Assembly: GCA_017942025.1 (NCBI GenBank)
Contig: JAGAVH010000033.1
Span: 1 to 64,000, forward strand
Direction of reading: 5' to 3'
Length of the DNA stretch: 64,000 nucleotides
Source of the DNA: Ruminiclostridium sp.
Lineage (GTDB): Bacteria; Bacillota; Clostridia; Oscillospirales; Ruminococcaceae
The notes under the pieces: model-generated
What the model was told of the DNA's origin: nothing
Database searches by the model: none
Seen by the model: only the letters and a program-made list of their open reading frames with translations
Program-made: the position numbers and the translations under genes
Shown: positions 55,510 to 64,000 of the stretch, piece by piece
Position numbering within the stretch: the first letter of the stretch is position 1
Layout of the letters: the number at the start of each line of letters is the position of its first letter

Positions 55510-56430
55510 TTACCAGGGCTTGACTGTACCAACAATATCAGAAAGCTTTTCAATCTTATTTTCTGTCAGGAATTTTTCGATACCCTCGCATACCTTGATA
55601 GGTGCATAGGGATCGCCGAAGATAGCAGTACCCATCTGAAGTGCAGATGCACCCGCCATCATCATTTCGATAGCGTCCTCAGCAGTTGCGATACCGCCCA
55701 TACCGATTACGGGAATCTTGACTGCATTTGATACCTGCCATACCATTCTTACCGCAACGGGGAAAATAGCAGGACCTGAAAGACCACCTACATTGTTGTG
55801 AAGGATAGGTCTTCTTGTGCGGATATCAATTCTCATACCAAGAAGAGTATTTATTACGGATACGCTGTCTGCGCCCTCTGCTTCAACCGCTCTTGCTATT
55901 TCTGTTATATCTGTAACATTAGGAGTCAGCTTTACGATAACGGGCTTCTTGGTGGCATTTCTTACAGCCTTTGTTACAGAAGCCGCACCCTCGCAGGTAA
56001 CGCCCCAGGTAGCGCCGCCCTTCTTTACGTTGGGGCAGGAAATGTTAAGCTCTATCATATCAACATCGGTTGCATCCAGCTTTTCAGCAACCTCTCTGTA
56101 GTCGTCAATGGAAGCACCTGCGATGTTTGCAATAACTACAGTATCCTGAGCTTTGAGTCTTGGGAGATAGTAGTTTATAAATCTGTCAATACCGGGATTC
56201 TGCAGACCTACGGAATTTAAGATACCGCTGGGAGTTTCTGCGATTCTGGGAGGAATATTACCATCCTTGGGGTTAAGTGTAGTACCCTTGCAGGAAATAC
56301 CGCCAAGTGCTGATAAGGGATAAAGGTCTGTATAGTCCTCGCCAAAGCCATAAGCGCCTGATGCGGCGATTATAGGATTCTTAAAAGTCTGTCCGCAGAC
56401 ATTAACTGAAATATCAGGTTTAAAACTCAT
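55510..56430 (-). CDS. pyrD: Dihydroorotate dehydrogenase B, catalytic subunit
   Basis: This 306-residue FMN enzyme oxidises dihydroorotate to orotate, the fourth step of UMP synthesis. It has the class 1B features N-P-I-I-A-A-S-G-A-Y-G-F-G, L-N-I-S-C-P-N-V-K-K-G-G with the catalytic Cys nearby, V-K-L-T-P-N-V-T-D and the FMN phosphate site G-M-G-G-I. It pairs with PyrK, whose stop codon overlaps this start by 4 bp; the complex passes electrons to NAD+. Confidence 0.97.
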   Translation of the reverse strand: MSFKPDISVNVCGQTFKNPIIAASGAYGFGEDYTDLYPLSALGGISCKGTTLNPKDGNIPPRIAETPSGILNSVGLQNPGIDRFINYYLPRLKAQDTVVIANIAGASIDDYREVAEKLDATDVDMIELNISCPNVKKGGATWGVTCEGAASVTKAVRNATKKPVIVKLTPNVTDITEIARAVEAEGADSVSVINTLLGMRIDIRTRRPILHNNVGGLSGPAIFPVAVRMVWQVSNAVKIPVIGMGGIATAEDAIEMMMAGASALQMGTAIFGDPYAPIKVCEGIEKFLTENKIEKLSDIVGTVKPW

Positions 56431-57200
56431 AATACTACCTCCTCACCCTTGAATACGGGGCCATCCTTACATACTCTTAAAACGTATTCCTTGCCGCCTC
56501 GGATAACTGTACAGGCACATACAACACAAGCACCTACGCCACAGCCCATTCTCTGCTCCAGGGAAACCTCGCTGTCAACACCTGCCGCCTTGGTTGCTTC
56601 TACAATAGCCTTCAGCATAGGAGTAGGACCGCAGGCATAAACACATGCCACATCGCCCTTTGCAAGCTCCTCGGTGAGAGGTCCGATTACTGTGCCCTTT
56701 ACACCTACAGAGCCGTCGTCTGTGCAGACTATAGTCTTTGCGCCTGTAGCCGCATAATCCTTATCAAGGATAACTCTGTCAAAGCTACGGAAGCCTAGGA
56801 TTGCTGTGCAGTTTTCGCCGTACTGCTTTGCAATATCCAGCATAGGAGGTGTACCGATACCACCACCTATTACAATTACTCTGCCTTCCTTCTTTGAAGG
56901 AGTTGTAAAGCCCTTGCCAAGAGGAGCGATAACATCCATAAGGTCGCCCTTATTAAGCTCGGTTATCTTATCTGTACCCTTGCCTCTTACTTCGAATACA
57001 AGGCGGATTGTACCCTTTTCCTTATCTGTACTGCAGATAGAGATGGGGCGGCGGAGCGTATAGCCTTCAGCCTTTATCTGTACAAACTGACCGATACTCG
57101 CATTCTCTGCCACTTCAGGGCAAAGGATGGTGTAGGAATAGATATCCTCAGCCAGTGCTTTTTTCTCGATTACGGGATATGAATTGCAAAAAAAGCTCAT
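56427..57200 (-). CDS. pyrK: Dihydroorotate dehydrogenase B, electron transfer subunit
   Basis: This 257-residue protein has an FAD-binding barrel (R-R-P-I-S-I-C-S), an NAD-binding half (G-G-G-I-G-T-P-P-M-L) and a C-terminal [2Fe-2S] site with four cysteines (M-G-C-G-V-G-A-C-V-V-C-A-C and R-V-C-K-D-G-P-V-F). ATG 57200 is preferred over ATG 57233 from the GAAAGGA site. It overlaps pyrD by 4 bp, which supports equal synthesis of the two subunits. A 71-bp gap separates it from the preceding membrane protein gene. Confidence 0.95.
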   Translation of the reverse strand: MSFFCNSYPVIEKKALAEDIYSYTILCPEVAENASIGQFVQIKAEGYTLRRPISICSTDKEKGTIRLVFEVRGKGTDKITELNKGDLMDVIAPLGKGFTTPSKKEGRVIVIGGGIGTPPMLDIAKQYGENCTAILGFRSFDRVILDKDYAATGAKTIVCTDDGSVGVKGTVIGPLTEELAKGDVACVYACGPTPMLKAIVEATKAAGVDSEVSLEQRMGCGVGACVVCACTVIRGGKEYVLRVCKDGPVFKGEEVVL

Positions 57201-57271
57201 AGTGATTTTCCTTTCATTTAAAGCATAAGCCACCGTAAGTATTCCCTGCGGCAGCTTCTGTTATTACAGGA

Positions 57272-57901
57272 TTAGCCACGCATTATAACATCCTCGTCGC
57301 TATTTTCCTTTTTCTTTATTTTAACTTTTCCTTCTTCCCTTACGGAAGGCTTTTCAGAGCTTGCTTTGTCCTTTTCTGTCCTGATTTTAGCAAACGCCTT
57401 TATACGGCAGTATGTAATATAAATCACAAGCCCTGCTACGATTACATCAAGAACAAACTGCAGACTGAACCAGGATGTGCCCTGGAGAAGAATGTTGTTC
57501 TGGCATATGAATGTAAGGTCCCAAAGTGCAAAAAGCGCTAAAATACGAAGCAGACTGTTTGTTATCATTATCGTATCATAATACTTCTGTGCATTTGCTT
57601 CGGTTATAACAAATCTTTTCGGCTCCTTATGCTTTGCGAACATAAACCAGATAGAAAAGACTATAACCGCAAGAGCGATAATCGGGAATGTAAACCCCCA
57701 TAACCACACATGAAAAGGAATACCGTCCGCAAATATAGTTTCAACTATTCTTTTTAAAACGGCGCTGGAGGGGTTTGTCATATTATTTACAAAGGCAAAG
57801 GTAGTCTGATAGATGAGGTATGCCAGAAGCAACCCCATCACATCAATAAAACCCTTTAATATGCCATAGTTTAATTTAACCTGATATTTACCTATCTTCA
57901 A
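57272..57901 (-). CDS. Four-helix membrane protein inside the pyr operon, unknown
   Basis: This 209-residue protein has hydrophobic segments near 17-38, 65-88, 110-130 and 140-163, then a charged Lys/Glu tail. It lies 9 bp after carB and before pyrK on the same strand, so it is an operon member. The architecture resembles DUF2975-like membrane proteins, not known uracil permeases. No pyrimidine function can be assigned. Confidence 0.65.
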   Translation of the reverse strand: MKIGKYQVKLNYGILKGFIDVMGLLLAYLIYQTTFAFVNNMTNPSSAVLKRIVETIFADGIPFHVWLWGFTFPIIALAVIVFSIWFMFAKHKEPKRFVITEANAQKYYDTIMITNSLLRILALFALWDLTFICQNNILLQGTSWFSLQFVLDVIVAGLVIYITYCRIKAFAKIRTEKDKASSEKPSVREEGKVKIKKKENSDEDVIMRG

Positions 57902-57910
57902 CTTATCACC

Positions 57911-60900
57911 TTAAATTTTTGTGATGTCAATCATTTCGATATCATCAACCGTCTTATCCATAGCAATACACTTTACAAGTGCGTTTGCTGTGTCTACTGA
58001 AGTAAGGCAGGCGATGGAACGCTCAACCGACTTACGACGAATCTTAACGCTGTCACGGGCAGGCTTTCTGCCTGTTTCAGAGGTAGAGATAACGTAGTTT
58101 ATCTTTCCGCTTTCAAGCAGGCTGATTACGTTGGGTTCCTTTTCCTCGTTTATACGGTAGGTGAAGTTTGTAGCTATCATATTTCTGTTGAGCATTGAAG
58201 CTGTACCGCTGGTAGCATAAAGCTCAAAGCCGAGCTTTTCAAACTTTTCTGCAAGAGGAATGATTTCGGGCTTGTCGCTGTTCTTTACGGAGAACATTAC
58301 GCCGCCCTCCTTGAACATCTTGAAGCCTGCCGCCATAAGTCCCTTGAATAATGCCTCTTCAAAGGTCTTTGCAATACCGAGAGCTTCACCTGTGGACTTC
58401 ATTTCAGGACCGAGCTGTGTATCTACATCGTGGAGCTTTTCAAAGCTGAATACGGGTACCTTTACAGCCACATAGTCGCCTACGGGGTAAAGTCCGCTCT
58501 GATATCCCTGATCCTTTAAGGTCTGACCGAACATGATCTTTGTTGCAATGTCAACCATCTGTACGCCTGTTACCTTGCTGATGTAAGGAACAGTTCTTGA
58601 AGAACGGGGGTTAACCTCAATTACATATACTTCATTATCATATACAACGTACTGGATATTTACAAGACCGATAACGTTAAGTGACTTTGCAAGTTTTTCC
58701 GTATAGGTGATGATCGTATTCTTTATCTTATCTGAAAGCGTCTGGCAGGGATATACAGAGATACTGTCACCTGAGTGAACGCCTGCACGCTCGATGTGTT
58801 CCATAATGCCGGGAATGAGGAAGTCTGTACCGTCGCAGATAGCGTCAACCTCAACCTCTGTACCCATAAGGTACTTATCGATAAGAACAGGGTTTTCAAG
58901 CTCTGTTGCCGTGATGATTGTCATATATTCATCAACGTCGCTGTCGCAGTGTGCGATAATCATATTCTGACCGCCGAGTACGTAGGAGGGACGGAGCAGA
59001 ACGGGATAACCAAGCTCGTTTGCAACCTTTAAGGCTTCTTCTGTTGTGAATACTGTATGACCTGCAGGTCTGGGTATTCCGCACTTTTCAAGAAGCTCGT
59101 CAAACTTTTCTCTGTCCTCTGCATCGTCAATGCTCTGTGCAGAAGTACCGAGGATTCTTACGCCTGTTTCCTGGAGGTGCTTTGTCAGCTTGATAGCTGT
59201 CTGACCACCGAACTGAACAACAACGCCGTAGGGCTGTTCTGTTGCGATAAGAGCGTCAACGTCCTCAAAAGTAAGGGGATCGAAATAGAGTCTGTCGCCT
59301 GTATCAAAGTCGGTAGAAACTGTTTCGGGGTTATTGTTGCAGATGATTGCCTCGTAACCCAGTTCCTTCAGAGCCCATACGCAGTGAACGGAGCAGTAGT
59401 CGAATTCGATACCCTGACCGATACGGATAGGACCTGAGCCGAATACTATAACCTTCTTCTTGTCTGTGGGGTGCTGCTTTATGAATTCAGCCGCTTCGTT
59501 TTCATCGTCATAGGTGCTGTAAAAGTAGGGAGTTTCTGCGGCAAATTCTGCGGCGCAGGTATCAACCATCTTATATACAGCCTGACGTGTCTTTATACCC
59601 TTGTCGGAAAGACTCTGACCTGAAATCTTTTCAATGGACTTATCAAGGTAGCAGTACTTCTTTGCAAGGTCGTATTTTTCCTGAGTAAGCTCACCCTCAG
59701 CAAGCCACTTTTCAAGCTCTGCAAGATTTAAGAGCTTTGAAATAAACCACTTGTCAACCTTTGTGATTTCGTTTATTTCTTCAACGCTGATGCCTCTCTT
59801 AAGCGCTTCAAAAATGCAGAAGCATCTGTCAACGTCAACATTGTGAAGACTTGCTCTGATTTCCTCATCGGAAAGATCTATAAACGTCTTCTTTGTAAGT
59901 GTGTCCATGCCAAGCTCGATAGAACGTACAGCCTTCATCATAGCCGCCTCAAAGCTGGGAGCAATGGACATGATCTCACCGGTTGCCTTCATCTGTGTAC
60001 CAAGTGTCTTCTTTGCATAAACGAACTTATCAAAGGGCCACTTGGGGAACTTTACTACGATATAGTCGATAGAAGGCTCAAAGCAGGCGTAGGTCTTGCC
60101 TGTTACCTGGTTCAGAATTTCATCAAGGCAGTAGCCTATAGCAATCTTTGCCGCTACCTTAGCGATAGGATAACCTGTAGCCTTGGAAGCGAGAGCAGAA
60201 GAACGGGAAACTCTGGGGTTAACCTCGATTACTGCGTATTCAAAGCTATCGGGCTTTAATGCGAACTGACAGTTACAGCCGCCTTCTACTTCAAGTGCCT
60301 GAACGATATTCAGCGCCGCTGTGCGGAGCATCTGATATTCTATGTCTGTAAGAGATACTGCAGGAGCAACTACTATACTGTCGCCTGTGTGTACGCCTAC
60401 AGGGTCCATGTTTTCCATTGAACATACTGTGATAGCATTTCCCTTGGCGTCACGGATAACCTCAAATTCGATTTCCTTCCAGCCGGAGATACACTTTTCA
60501 ACAAGTATCTGTGTGATAGGAGATAAACGAAGACCGTTTGTAGCGATTTCGTGAAGCTCCTTCTCATCGTATGCAATACCGCCGCCAGTACCGCCAAGAG
60601 TGAAGGCAGGTCTTACGATTACGGGGTAGTCGATAACCTTTGCGAAGTCCATCGCATCTTCAACTGTTTCTACAACCTTTGAAGGAATGCAGGGCTCACC
60701 GATAGCCTCCATTGTATCCTTGAATGCCTGTCTGTCCTCTGCTTTGTGGATAGTTTCAGGTTTAGAACCGAGAAGCTTTACGTTGTTTTCAGCAAGGAAG
60801 CCCTCTTCTGCAAGCTGCATTGAAAGGGTAAGACCTGTCTGACCGCCGAGGTTTGACAGAATGCTGTCAGGCTTTTCAATCTTGATTATCTTCTTTATTA

Positions 60901-61117
60901 CATCAAGTGTTAAAGGCTCGATGTAAATTTTGTCAGCCATATGCTTGTCCGTCATAATTGTAGCAGGGTTGGAGTTTACTAAAACAACCTCAAGTCCCTC
61001 CTGCTTTAACGCACGGCAAGCCTGTGTGCCTGCATAGTCAAACTCTGCTGCCTGACCGATTACGATAGGTCCTGAACCGATTACGAGAACCTTTTTGATA
61101 TCACTTCTTAATGGCAT
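57911..61117 (-). CDS. carB: Carbamoyl phosphate synthetase, large subunit
   Basis: This 1068-residue enzyme makes carbamoyl phosphate from bicarbonate, ammonia and two ATP. Both ATP-grasp halves are intact: the N half begins V-L-V-I-G-S-G-P-I-V-I-G-Q-A-A-E-F-D-Y and has E-V-N-P-R-V-S-R-S-S-A-L, and the C half has V-F-G-S-G-P-I-R-I-G-Q-G-I-E-F-D-Y and E-V-N-P-R-S-S-R-T-V-P. The C-terminal MGS-like allosteric domain (from about 935) is present. One base separates it from carA upstream. Because the small subunit here seems to lack glutaminase activity, CarB may take free ammonia. Confidence 0.97.
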   Translation of the reverse strand: MPLRSDIKKVLVIGSGPIVIGQAAEFDYAGTQACRALKQEGLEVVLVNSNPATIMTDKHMADKIYIEPLTLDVIKKIIKIEKPDSILSNLGGQTGLTLSMQLAEEGFLAENNVKLLGSKPETIHKAEDRQAFKDTMEAIGEPCIPSKVVETVEDAMDFAKVIDYPVIVRPAFTLGGTGGGIAYDEKELHEIATNGLRLSPITQILVEKCISGWKEIEFEVIRDAKGNAITVCSMENMDPVGVHTGDSIVVAPAVSLTDIEYQMLRTAALNIVQALEVEGGCNCQFALKPDSFEYAVIEVNPRVSRSSALASKATGYPIAKVAAKIAIGYCLDEILNQVTGKTYACFEPSIDYIVVKFPKWPFDKFVYAKKTLGTQMKATGEIMSIAPSFEAAMMKAVRSIELGMDTLTKKTFIDLSDEEIRASLHNVDVDRCFCIFEALKRGISVEEINEITKVDKWFISKLLNLAELEKWLAEGELTQEKYDLAKKYCYLDKSIEKISGQSLSDKGIKTRQAVYKMVDTCAAEFAAETPYFYSTYDDENEAAEFIKQHPTDKKKVIVFGSGPIRIGQGIEFDYCSVHCVWALKELGYEAIICNNNPETVSTDFDTGDRLYFDPLTFEDVDALIATEQPYGVVVQFGGQTAIKLTKHLQETGVRILGTSAQSIDDAEDREKFDELLEKCGIPRPAGHTVFTTEEALKVANELGYPVLLRPSYVLGGQNMIIAHCDSDVDEYMTIITATELENPVLIDKYLMGTEVEVDAICDGTDFLIPGIMEHIERAGVHSGDSISVYPCQTLSDKIKNTIITYTEKLAKSLNVIGLVNIQYVVYDNEVYVIEVNPRSSRTVPYISKVTGVQMVDIATKIMFGQTLKDQGYQSGLYPVGDYVAVKVPVFSFEKLHDVDTQLGPEMKSTGEALGIAKTFEEALFKGLMAAGFKMFKEGGVMFSVKNSDKPEIIPLAEKFEKLGFELYATSGTASMLNRNMIATNFTYRINEEKEPNVISLLESGKINYVISTSETGRKPARDSVKIRRKSVERSIACLTSVDTANALVKCIAMDKTVDDIEMIDITKI

Positions 61118-61118
61118 A

Positions 61119-62225
61119 TTACTTATTTCCCTCCATCAGACCGATAAATTTATCATAAAGATAAGATGTAGTACTCTTCTGTTCTCCTGTTTCAGGATGG
61201 AACTGTACCGAGAATGCGGGAGTATTCTTGTACTCGATACCCTCGCAGGTCTTATCGTTTGCATTGATGTGGCTTATTACCGCCTTTGCTGTATCAACGC
61301 TATCGCTTATTACCGCATAGCCGTGATTCTGTGAAGTTACATAAGTTGTACCGAAGTTCTTATCTGTTACAGGCTGGCTTGCACCTCTGTGACCGTACTT
61401 CAGCTTTTCTGTATCAAAGCCGTTGGCAAGAGCTAAAAGCTGATGGCCGAGTCTGATACCGAAGGTAGGAATGTTTTCTGCGATAAGCTCTTTAAGTGTG
61501 TTTACAGCCGCTTCGTTATCCTTAGGGTCTGCAGGACCGTTTGAAAGAACTATACCATCGGGAGCAAATTCCTTTATTTCTGCCGCTGTGACATTCCAGG
61601 GGAATACTGTTACATCACAGCCTCTCTTTGTAAGAGAATTTACTATATTCTTTGTAAAGCCGTAGTCGATAAGAGCAACCCTGTACTTGCCGTTTTCAGC
61701 CTTGAATTCCTTCTTTTCGCCGCTTACCTTCTCTACTGCACCTGTTATCTTATATTCCTTGATTTCAGGGATAGCCTTTGCGAGAAATTCTTCTGTAGGC
61801 TCTTCGGTAGTAATCATACCATTCATAACGCCCTTTTCACGAAGGATTCTTGTAAGTCTTCTTGTATCTATGTCGAAAAGACCGATAATTCCGTGCTTTT
61901 TAAGGAAACTGTCAATATCGCCTTCACAGCGGAAGTTTGAGGGTGCCTCGCAGTATTCACGGACAATATATCCGTTTATGGCAATCTTCTCTGAGGAGTA
62001 ATCCTCGTCGTTCACGCCGTAGTTACCGATAAGGGGGAAAGTCTGCACCATAATCTGTCCGCAGTAGGAGGGGTCTGTTATAGCCTCCTGATAGCCGACC
62101 ATTGATGTGCTGAATACAACCTCACCGATTGCTTTGCCTTCACTTCCAAAGCTTTTGCCTTTGAAAATTGTGCCGTCCGCTAAAATAAGGTATGCGGTCT
62201 TTGCTTTAATCAGGTTTAAAGTCAT
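61119..62225 (-). CDS. carA: Carbamoyl phosphate synthetase small subunit lacking the catalytic cysteine
   Basis: This 368-residue protein is clearly CarA: the N-terminal swivelling domain has E-V-V-F-S-T-S-M-V-G-Y-Q-E-A-I-T-D-P-S-Y, and a class I glutamine amidotransferase domain follows. But the nucleophile elbow, normally G-I-C-L-G-H-Q, reads G-I-R-L-G-H-Q. R258 is encoded by AGA (61452-61454), which needs two base changes from the usual TGC. The oxyanion strand N-G-P-G-D-P reads N-G-P-A-D-P, and the loop after H343-P-E345 is also altered. The His and Glu of the triad remain. The protein may thus be a structural subunit of an ammonia-dependent synthetase, as in animal CPS I, which has also lost the Cys. 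Reading frame and length are intact. Confidence 0.93.
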   Translation of the reverse strand: MTLNLIKAKTAYLILADGTIFKGKSFGSEGKAIGEVVFSTSMVGYQEAITDPSYCGQIMVQTFPLIGNYGVNDEDYSSEKIAINGYIVREYCEAPSNFRCEGDIDSFLKKHGIIGLFDIDTRRLTRILREKGVMNGMITTEEPTEEFLAKAIPEIKEYKITGAVEKVSGEKKEFKAENGKYRVALIDYGFTKNIVNSLTKRGCDVTVFPWNVTAAEIKEFAPDGIVLSNGPADPKDNEAAVNTLKELIAENIPTFGIRLGHQLLALANGFDTEKLKYGHRGASQPVTDKNFGTTYVTSQNHGYAVISDSVDTAKAVISHINANDKTCEGIEYKNTPAFSVQFHPETGEQKSTTSYLYDKFIGLMEGNK

Positions 62226-62263: not shown

Positions 62264-63196
62264 TTACGGAAGCTTGATTTCTCCCACAAAACCCATAATT
62301 TCATCTCTCATACGCATTGCCTCTCTGAATGCCGCACCTGCATAGTCACGCTCGTCGCAGCCTTCCTTCTTGTATGCGCACATAATTCCTCTTGAGCTGT
62401 TTACGATACCGCCAAGACCGTTACCATCAAATGCCGCCGCAATATCCTTTGCAGAAGCACCCTGAGCGCCATAGCCGGGGATGAGGAAAAAGGTGTGAGG
62501 AAGCTTTTCACGAAGCTCTGCAATCTGCTCGGGGTATGTTGCACCAACTACCGCGCCTACGCCTGAGTAGCCATACTTGCCCATAAGCTCCTGTCCCCAC
62601 TTTTCACACATATTACCCATATGCTCATAAACTGTGATGTCGCCTATCTTCAAGTCCTGAAGCTCACCGCTTGAAGGATTTGATGTCTTTACTAATACGA
62701 AGATACCCTTGTTGTTTTCCTTACATACCTTGATAAGAGGATTGATACCATCGCTGCCGAGATAACCGTTTACTGTAAGGGCGTCGCCCATAAAGGGTGT
62801 GTATTCTTCCTTGCCCACCTTGATTTTACCTAAATGAGCCGCCGCATAGGCTTCCATTGTTGTACCGATATCGTTTCTCTTACCGTCGGTAATTACATAC
62901 ATACCTCTGCTTCTTGCATATTCCTGTGTCTTGTACAGAGTCTTCATACCTGCTGTGCCGTACATTTCGTAATAAGCCGCCTGGGGCTTTACTGCAGGAA
63001 CTATCTCGTGCAGAGCATCGATAAGTCCTTTATTGTATTCTAAAATTGCCTTTGCCGCACCTTTAAGAGTTTCGCCGTACTTGTTGAACGCCTTCTCCTT
63101 GATGTATTCAGGTACAAAGTCAAGCTTGGGGTCGAGACCTGCAACTGTAGGGTTCTGTGTGCGCTGGATTGCCTCCATAAGTAAATCAAGTGACAT
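62264..63196 (-). CDS. pyrF: Orotidine 5'-phosphate decarboxylase
   Basis: This 310-residue protein is of the longer type 2 (mycobacterial-like) form. It begins N-P-T-V-A-G-L-D-P-K-L-D and has the catalytic D-G-K-R-N-D-I-G motif and the phosphate-binding P-G-Y-G-A-Q-G-A and S-S-R-G-I. It converts OMP to UMP, the last step of the pathway. It lies 31 bp after pyrC and 38 bp before carA. Confidence 0.96.
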   Translation of the reverse strand: MSLDLLMEAIQRTQNPTVAGLDPKLDFVPEYIKEKAFNKYGETLKGAAKAILEYNKGLIDALHEIVPAVKPQAAYYEMYGTAGMKTLYKTQEYARSRGMYVITDGKRNDIGTTMEAYAAAHLGKIKVGKEEYTPFMGDALTVNGYLGSDGINPLIKVCKENNKGIFVLVKTSNPSSGELQDLKIGDITVYEHMGNMCEKWGQELMGKYGYSGVGAVVGATYPEQIAELREKLPHTFFLIPGYGAQGASAKDIAAAFDGNGLGGIVNSSRGIMCAYKKEGCDERDYAGAAFREAMRMRDEIMGFVGEIKLP

Positions 63197-63227: not shown

Positions 63228-64000
63228 TTAATTATCTTTATATACAACTTGTCCGTTTACCAGTGTGTATTTTACCCTGCCCTTCATAGTCATACCCTTG
63301 AAACAGGTATTCTTTGACTTTGAATGAAGCTTTTCGGGTTCTACTACCCATTCTTCCTGAGGATCAAATATTGCTATATCCGCAACCTCGCCTCTTGCGA
63401 GAGAACCGCCCTCAATGCCGAGAATTCTTCTGGGATTGATACACATAAGTCTTACTATCTGTGCAATATCTATCGTTTCTGTGTGATAAAGTGCCGTAAG
63501 TGTAGCCGCAAGGGATGTTTCCATACCTACTACACCATTCGGAGCCTTTTCAAAATCTGCCTTTTCTTCAGCAGAATGAGGTGCATGGTCAGTTACTATA
63601 CAGTCGATTGTACCATCTGTTATAGCCGCTCTTATCGCCATAACATCGTCAGCCTCACGAAGCGGAGGATTCATTCTGTAGTCGGCGTCACGTGAACGCA
63701 GAGCCTCGTCAGTCAGCATAAAGTAATGAGGTGCTGTTTCGCAGGTGCACATTACACCGATGTGTGTATTGCCTCTGATTATATTGATGCTTCCCTTTGT
63801 GCTTACGTGTGCTATGTGAATAGGCATCTGGCTTGCCTGGGCTATCGCCAGCTCTCTTGCCGTTATGGTGTCCTCGCTGAGTCTGCTCATTCCTTTTACG
63901 CCAAGTTCAAGAGAAACCTTGCCCTTGTTCATAATACCGCCGTCGATTACCTCTAAATCCTCACAATGGGAGATAACCTTGAGTCCGGCATAGTGAGCCT
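63228..64000 (-). CDS. pyrC: Dihydroorotase (N-terminal part outside window)
   Basis: The frame is open to the right edge; the visible 257 residues are the C-terminal part. Metal ligands and substrate residues can be seen in I-S-H-C-E-D, H-I-A-H-V-S-T, E-T-A-P-H-Y-F and V-T-D-H-A-P-H, with the usual N-P-P-L-R. It closes carbamoyl aspartate to dihydroorotate. An ATG at 63932 is internal, since homology continues upstream of it. First visible gene of the operon; the promoter and pyrB, if present, lie outside. Confidence 0.95.
   Translation of the reverse strand, partial: AHYAGLKVISHCEDLEVIDGGIMNKGKVSLELGVKGMSRLSEDTITARELAIAQASQMPIHIAHVSTKGSINIIRGNTHIGVMCTCETAPHYFMLTDEALRSRDADYRMNPPLREADDVMAIRAAITDGTIDCIVTDHAPHSAEEKADFEKAPNGVVGMETSLAATLTALYHTETIDIAQIVRLMCINPRRILGIEGGSLARGEVADIAIFDPQEEWVVEPEKLHSKSKNTCFKGMTMKGRVKYTLVNGQVVYKDN

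Follow-up and report, generated by a model that had tools for sequence, protein, structure and literature searches.

The small subunit of carbamoyl-phosphate synthetase (CPS) encoded in the stretch of Ruminiclostridium sp. DNA analysed here (the window, 64,000 nucleotides) has arginine at the position of the glutaminase nucleophile cysteine, and we consider it likely, from sequence comparison, that its CarAB is a working CPS which would be unable to hydrolyse glutamine and would take free ammonia instead, in convergence with the CPS1 of animals. The catalytic triad of CarA has been lost repeatedly among relatives of this bacterium, the protein that remains is under selection, and the large subunit, CarB, is intact and has undergone convergent changes. 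Glutamine is described as the physiological donor of the E. coli enzyme and, by extension, of all bacterial CPSases, use of ammonia being said to demand concentrations that are likely irrelevant (PMC6245113, excerpt), and CPS1 has been named the sole CPS type not using glutamine (PMC4655335, excerpt). In the open-licence full-text literature we found no report of natural nucleophile loss in a bacterial CarA; a study of E. coli carB mutations (PMC6941894) does not, in the part available, treat a CarA that lacks its nucleophile.

The features of the locus are collected in Table 1. Window CarA scores 432 bits against the NCBIfam profile TIGR01368 (curated cut-off 307), and E. coli CarA chains match it at E about 1e-86. 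An earlier note on this DNA had read Arg in place of the nucleophile, and alignment bears this out, with Arg258 of the segment G-I-R-L-G-H-Q (residues 256-262) standing opposite Cys269 of E. coli. The same note had taken a Gly-to-Ala change in N-G-P-A-D-P, which begins at residue 229, for a second lesion of the glutaminase site. The alanine is present at the position of E. coli Gly243, but it does not mark loss of activity, because it is missing in the third of the Arg-bearing species described below (L003) and occurs in the Cys-type, intact CarA of two other genomes (G133 and G222); it was therefore rejected as a sign of loss. TIGR01368 is an equivalog for the ‘glutamine-hydrolyzing’ small subunit and accepts the nucleophile-less window protein well above its cut-off. 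Since Arg replaces the nucleophile, that label cannot hold if the nucleophile is needed, and as an automatic annotation of window CarA it is probably wrong.

Table 1. Features of the CPS locus and adjoining pyrimidine genes, in window coordinates.
Feature	Position	Strand	Basis or remark
pyrD, dihydroorotate dehydrogenase	55510..56430	-	PF01180
pyrK, dihydroorotate dehydrogenase B electron-transfer subunit	56427..57233	-	PF10418
209-aa protein of no Pfam family, between carB and pyrK	57272..57901	-	no Pfam match
carB, large subunit, 1068 aa, full length, putative catalytic residues conserved	57911..61117	-	TIGR01369
CarB position 350 (E. coli 352) = Ile (Leu in nearest Cys-type relatives)	60068..60070	-	switches with triad loss
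CarB position 272 = Val (Ile in nearest Cys-type relatives)	60302..60304	-	switches with CarA triad loss
carA, carbamoyl-phosphate synthetase small subunit, without glutaminase nucleophile	61119..62225	-	368 aa; TIGR01368 and E. coli CarA matches
Gln349-Lys350 replacing Gly359-Pro360, invariant in 105 intact relatives	61176..61181	-	alignment
His343 and Glu345 of the triad, kept (E. coli His353, Glu355)	61191..61199	-	alignment
Codon AGA = Arg258, aligned to E. coli CarA nucleophile Cys269	61452..61454	-	alignment
Codon GCA = Ala232 (E. coli Gly243); not diagnostic, also in Cys-type CarA	61530..61532	-	
pyrF, orotidine 5'-phosphate decarboxylase, adjoins carA	62264..63196	-	PF00215
pyrC-like dihydroorotase (amidohydrolase), cut by window end	63228..63998	-	PF01979

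The arginine is shared by three species. A protein search matched CarA at 1e-60 in 51 of the 60 genomes of the genus, and among the best 30 of these 51 sequences 27 have Cys and three have Arg, the latter belonging to the genome of the window itself (G000) and to two separate assemblies (G040 and G028) whose CarA are 95% and 93% identical to it. All three use the codon AGA, at a carA DNA identity of 87-90%, and a single base error offers no explanation for it because AGA lies two substitutions from any Cys codon (TGY). Pairwise dN/dS of CarA among the three species is 0.040, 0.054 and 0.061 (0.06-0.08 for the glutaminase domain alone), and none of the genes contains a stop. The earlier note's reading of an intact frame is thus upheld, a pseudogene can be rejected, and CarA of the Arg species is maintained by selection rather than degenerating. 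The note had named a second intact carA as an observation that would undo its interpretation; none was found in the same genome (83% complete, a draft of 80 contigs) or in the two sister genomes (98% and 90% complete), and the idea was rejected for these three. The Arg clade appears, as far as its sequenced genes tell, to have an ammonia-type CPS only.

Loss of the nucleophile is not confined to this clade. We searched 84,980 species genomes with the pattern P-x-F-[GA]-I-[Arg or AGY-Ser]-L-G-H-Q-L (x encoded by RYN), which captures Arg or AGY-Ser within intact flanks only, in a set that need not include the window's own record. Nine stretches were returned, every one of them carA. Seven come from MAGs named Oscillospiraceae, Ruminococcus, Ruminiclostridium or Clostridia, five of which are titled goat, buffalo or deer gut; the remaining two are an Alkaliphilus and a Lachnospiraceae MAG. 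We then considered an alignment of 150 CarA including E. coli, reduced to 148 by leaving out RGIG3953 (frameshifted, in two pieces) and G303 (partial). The Cys-His-Glu triad is incomplete in 42 of the 148 (E. coli being counted among the 148), and CarA of this kind is called dead below, a definition that takes in G254 and G308, where Cys is present and His is gone. The nucleophile position of the 42 holds Gly (24), Ser (8), Arg (4), Asp (3) or Ala (1), with Cys kept in two, and Cys and His are both missing in 31 of the 148. In G254 and G308 (L153 and L154) the catalytic His has become Ile (FIPE) beside a retained Cys, so His can be the first member of the triad to be lost.

Within the family, at least 26 of the 223 genomes that have CarA carry a dead copy, a lower bound since not every Cys place among the motif matches was confirmed to be CarA or had its His and Glu read. 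The figure combines nine among the motif places listed (177 genomes with the motif) with 17 of 46 genomes from a protein search, which took 80 of the 120 motif-negative family genomes and found CarA in 46, the other 34 being without a match at 1e-40. For the genus the count is 12 of 47 genomes read, leaving out G004, G016, G037 and G053, which also have CarA matches. In a phylum-wide sample two of 59 other motif places are non-Cys, namely G596 (confirmed as CarA) and G533 (a motif match). Triad loss therefore extends beyond one family, exclusiveness being rejected by G596, the Alkaliphilus and the Lachnospiraceae MAG, and it is also found on contigs over 1 Mb (G063, G202 and G218). The earlier note had proposed to see whether the change marks a clade; it does, in three species, and the pattern is wider than expected, many relatives having lost the triad independently. 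The Lachnospiraceae MAG, Zagget2 (L043), has a separate Cys-to-Arg replacement (A-I-R-L-G-H-Q). At 14 other site positions that were checked it has the intact form, and the replacement is either very recent or an error. In CarA of Alkaliphilus sp. NP8 (L042), Ser replaces Cys and Asn replaces His; greater availability of free NH3 to an alkaliphile is a possible ecological link to this loss.

The number of losses was estimated on trees of both subunits. With the main active-site columns left out and E. coli as outgroup, the CarA tree needs at least 14 changes of state. Well supported branches force eight of these, and shuffled labels need about 37 on average. The CarB tree, from a longer alignment in which RGIG3953 stayed with no state assigned, requires 16 changes, 14 of them forced, and 17 when the candidate columns discussed below are removed. 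The CarB tree makes two separate losses of the window Arg clade and G022, a Gly-type member of its genus; on the CarA tree the two fall together, at a modest support of 85. We infer that the direction is loss and not gain because regaining a full triad is unlikely.

Once the triad is incomplete, a defined part of CarA is released from constraint. Of the 99 positions with a conservation of 93% or more among 105 intact CarA, 25 are released in the 42 dead sequences, including S47, E71, K202, N240, C269, H353, E355, G359, P360 and D362 (E. coli numbering), and 74 are kept, including G241, H272, H290, H312, N331, D334 and many sites in the N-terminal domain. Residues 359 and 360, which we take to line the ammonia tunnel, are Gly-Pro in all 105 intact CarA and changed in 31 of the 42 dead ones. 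Window CarA differs by C269R and F367Y and by E71S, K202T, N294S, G359Q, P360K and D362T, the last six being marks of the Arg clade at positions invariant in the 105 intact relatives. Its clade still has S47, N240, Q273, N311, H353 and E355, so that decay of the pocket has gone less far here than in the majority of dead CarA. Measured from the nearest intact relative and relative to CarB, divergence of the glutaminase half is about 3.0-fold in dead and 1.63-fold in intact CarA (34 and 48 rows; Mann-Whitney p 4e-10), and that of the N-terminal half 2.39 and 1.75 (p 3e-4); the rows are related and both p values are indicative only. Position 359 has been altered in the laboratory, the E. coli small-subunit mutant G359F being a solved structure (PDB 1M6V; PMC4360534, excerpt), and E. 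coli variants whose tunnel is blocked or perforated can no longer use glutamine, while their activity with external ammonia is normal (PMC4655335, excerpt).

The large subunit is intact in sequence. Window CarB scores 1442 bits against TIGR01369 (curated cut-off 1027), and carB lies close downstream of dead carA in 39 of 42 rows, the loci of Zagget2, G003 and G017 ending within about 1 kb or being short. CarB was compared over 35 dead rows (seven others are without a CarB of at least 800 aligned residues) and 52 intact rows. Sixteen positions that we take to be the catalytic residues of the two ATP-grasp active sites, R129, R169, E215, H243, Q285, E299, N301 and R303 together with R675, R715, E761, H788, Q829, E841, N843 and R845, are unchanged in all 35 dead-type CarB, and only two of 331 conserved CarB positions are released in the dead type.

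Two CarB positions change with the state of CarA. Position 272 is Ile in 45 of 52 intact rows and Val in 29 of 35 dead rows. At position 352 (E. coli numbering) Leu is found in 47 of the 52 intact rows, and either Ile or Val in 28 of the 35 dead ones. The Arg clade of the window has Val at 272 and Ile at 352, its nearest Cys-type sisters Ile and Leu. One or both changes are found in 33 of 35 dead as compared with 9 of 52 intact rows. They are neither necessary nor sufficient, because dead-type G130 and Alkaliphilus NP8 have neither and three intact genomes have both. Kinship was controlled with 13 independent pairs on supported branches, in which each position moves the same way in about eight and the opposite way in about none. 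Out of 694 variable CarB columns, 352 and 272 rank as the top two (differences 8.1 and 8.0; mean 0.008, s.d. 1.5) in a test run on a tree built with seven CarB columns removed. Residues 230-390 hold 10 of the top 11 columns as compared with 75 of the 694 in the background (p about 1e-9, for a stretch picked after the list had been viewed). Positions 232, 251 and 314 (E. coli numbers), presumably the ammonia gate of CarB, fall within this stretch, and in window CarB they are Cys/Ala/Ala, as in E. coli CarB. The gate residues named for CPS1 agree with these numbers (PMC4655335, excerpt). On this comparative evidence positions 272 and 352 shift convergently with triad loss, and they lie near the putative gate in the linear sequence.

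The window carA and carB lie among pyrimidine genes (Table 1), and no ammonia-generating gene was recognised among the seven neighbouring genes considered. The 209-aa protein encoded between carB and pyrK is membrane-like, and its versions in the sister species are 79% and 88% similar. Elsewhere in the genus, three genomes of a Gly-type clade (G012, G023 and G027; L170, L171 and L167) have, between carA and carB, an insert of 600-1437 bp that contains small ORFs, and two of the inserts encode a similar protein of 120-140 aa that seems to us to resemble DUF559; these inserts look like small, unrelated additions. Other glutamine-dependent enzymes of the window genome have kept their nucleophile, HisH reading G-I-C-L-G-M-Q and PurL G-I-C-N-G-F-Q, and a general loss of glutamine amidotransferases is thereby rejected. 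A search of this genome with the Pfam GATase family PF00117 recovered CarA and HisH only. It should also have hit GMP synthase and CTP synthase, neither of which it showed, and it is therefore weak evidence of absence.

Glutamine synthetase shows a distribution of its own. A type I enzyme with a long catalytic match (about 1.10 kb) occurs in 14 of 38 dead-CarA genomes and 1 of 42 intact ones, as raw counts in which kinship is ignored, and within the genus, again ignoring kinship, in 10 of 12 dead and 0 of 16 intact genomes, ten of the intact members having at most weak matches. Where read, this long form is 474-476 aa (for example L214:7548-8978, on G000:C21, and L216:6352-7776). Dead and intact genomes are not told apart by whether they have a type I glutamine synthetase of any length. 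Beside glnA of the window genome, on the opposite strand, lies a gene for a protein with many PNQYAQ/PNQYGQ repeats (L214:6457-7503).

Among loci of at least 8 kb, each CarA being counted once, pyr genes stand beside carA in 25 of 34 dead and 32 of 54 intact rows. Four genomes have two CarA (G046, G057, G218 and G282). In the first three the dead carA lies among pyr genes with its own carB, and the intact carA adjoins purF, in G046 and G057 also guaA; the intact copy of G046 is also near glmS, a glutamate-synthase-like gene, purC, purB and purA, and that of G218 near gdhA, a fused amt-PII gene and asnB. The intact copy of G282 adjoins a glutamine-hydrolyzing asparagine synthase and its dead copy a gene for LL-diaminopimelate aminotransferase, not pyr genes. 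The intact carA has its own carB in G057, G218 and G282. In G046 (L095 and L226) the intact carA stands between purF and guaA, with guaA directly following it, and no carB was seen there; the same cluster in G057 still has carB. At loci of at least 8 kb, no carB was seen beside intact carA in four rows (G052, G010, G267 and copy a of G046). The layout of the two-CPS genomes suggests that an ammonia enzyme and a glutamine enzyme may divide the work between them. The broader reading to which we incline, with some reserve, is that the CPS of gut Clostridia switched to ammonia more than 12 times by loss of the glutaminase, with matching convergent changes near the putative CarB gate, and that some genomes pair an ammonia CPS among pyr genes with a glutamine-cluster CPS, as isozymes for high and low ammonia in the manner of GDH and GS-GOGAT.

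The earlier note's interpretation, that loss of the Cys leaves CPS dependent on free ammonia, is on the whole supported by these comparisons as the likely reading. Arginine cannot act as a thiol nucleophile, and ammonia is plentiful in the rumen and gut. In the mechanism we propose for window CarAB, ammonia would have to come from outside because without the thiol no glutamyl thioester forms, and CarB would carry out the whole synthesis, from phosphorylation of bicarbonate through attack by ammonia to the second phosphorylation. CarA would be retained as a structural partner, most likely stabilising and ordering CarB as happens in CPS1. The switch would have been repeated many times in related gut Clostridia, and ammonia-rich habitats may have selected for it; afterwards the glutamine site and the tunnel that led ammonia from glutamine to CarB would decay, and CarB residues near the gate in sequence would converge. 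Cys269 and His353 have been called essential, and without glutamine the E. coli enzyme requires very high ammonia (PMC6245113, excerpt), so the window enzyme would have to use ammonia better or live with much of it.

Several other explanations have to be weighed against the ammonia-using CPS. Another glutamine amidotransferase or a deaminase might feed ammonia to CarB in trans and leave the pathway indirectly dependent on glutamine, and HisH and PurL with intact Cys, in a genome that is itself incomplete, would be compatible with this. We regard it as very unlikely, given that CarA stays beside CarB with purifying selection in both of its halves, that loss of Gly359-Pro360, the presumed tunnel residues, speaks against the old route of delivery, and that none of the seven neighbours was recognised as ammonia-generating, one of them encoding the 209-aa protein without a Pfam match. 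There is a similarly slim chance that the former glutaminase pocket binds an amino acid, glutamine or another, without cutting it and regulates an ammonia-driven CarB. Such a sensor could draw on Ser47, Gln273, Asn311, His353 and Glu355, which stay in window CarA, and the E. coli C269S structure does hold bound glutamine (PDB 1C3O; PMC4360534, excerpt), but retention of Ser47 in just 18 of the 42 dead CarA makes a common glutamine sensor unlikely, and Arg would be expected to crowd the pocket.

It is highly improbable that CarA is decaying because CarAB has become dispensable, with uptake of pyrimidines or arginine, or carbamate kinase as a source of carbamoyl phosphate, taking over. The 34 of 80 family genomes without a CarA match at 1e-40 indicate that the pathway can be lost in the family; the low dN/dS and unbroken frames of the three Arg species, the intact catalytic residues of CarB in every dead-type row and the position of window carA among pyrF, pyrC, pyrK and pyrD nevertheless argue for a gene in use. 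An error of sequencing or assembly, which the earlier note had itself raised and to which a draft in 80 contigs might be thought prone, can be given virtually no weight in view of the one AGA codon in three species with diverged carA, its distance of two substitutions from Cys, and the many assemblies, some with contigs over 1 Mb, in which the triad is lost.

Set beside known systems, the inferred ammonia-using CPS of the window resembles E. coli CarAB (TIGR01368/TIGR01369) in its two subunits, the order carA-carB, the CarB catalytic residues and the gate Cys/Ala/Ala, and differs from it in Cys269 to Arg and Gly359-Pro360 to Gln-Lys. The E. coli laboratory mutants C269S and G359F hit the same positions, the window changes being natural, combined and fixed by evolution. 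With animal CPS1 it shares a glutaminase domain that is kept although the catalytic Cys is replaced (by Ser294 in human CPS1, which uses ammonia) and an altered ancestral ammonia tunnel (PMC4655335, excerpt). CPS1 is a single mitochondrial chain, activated by N-acetylglutamate and serving the urea cycle; the small and large parts of the window CPS are separate genes among pyrimidine genes, with no CPS1-like fusion. On the CarA tree, rooted on E. coli and with no CPS1 among its rows, window CarA groups with CarA of its own genus, and we infer an origin independent of animal CPS1. Frog CPS1 is likewise an ammonia-only enzyme, as the window CPS would be, but its triad is kept and disabled by a Lys beside the Cys (PMC4655335, excerpt), whereas in the window Cys is gone and the Leu that follows is retained. 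The carbamate-kinase-like CPS of Pyrococcus also makes carbamoyl phosphate without glutamine, as we suppose for the window, and is set apart by its description as a carbamate kinase (PMC6245113, excerpt). The window CPS would thus work like CPS1, yet its sequence and gene order are those of a bacterial CarAB.

If this reading is right, many bacterial CPS enzymes cannot follow the rule that glutamine is the donor, and nature would have repeated more than 12 times the step that created animal CPS1. Positions 272 and 352 of CarB would be two candidates for what makes a synthetase ammonia-using. Because the annotation model labels the window gene glutamine-hydrolyzing, models of nitrogen flow in the rumen and gut are probably wrong at the CPS step.
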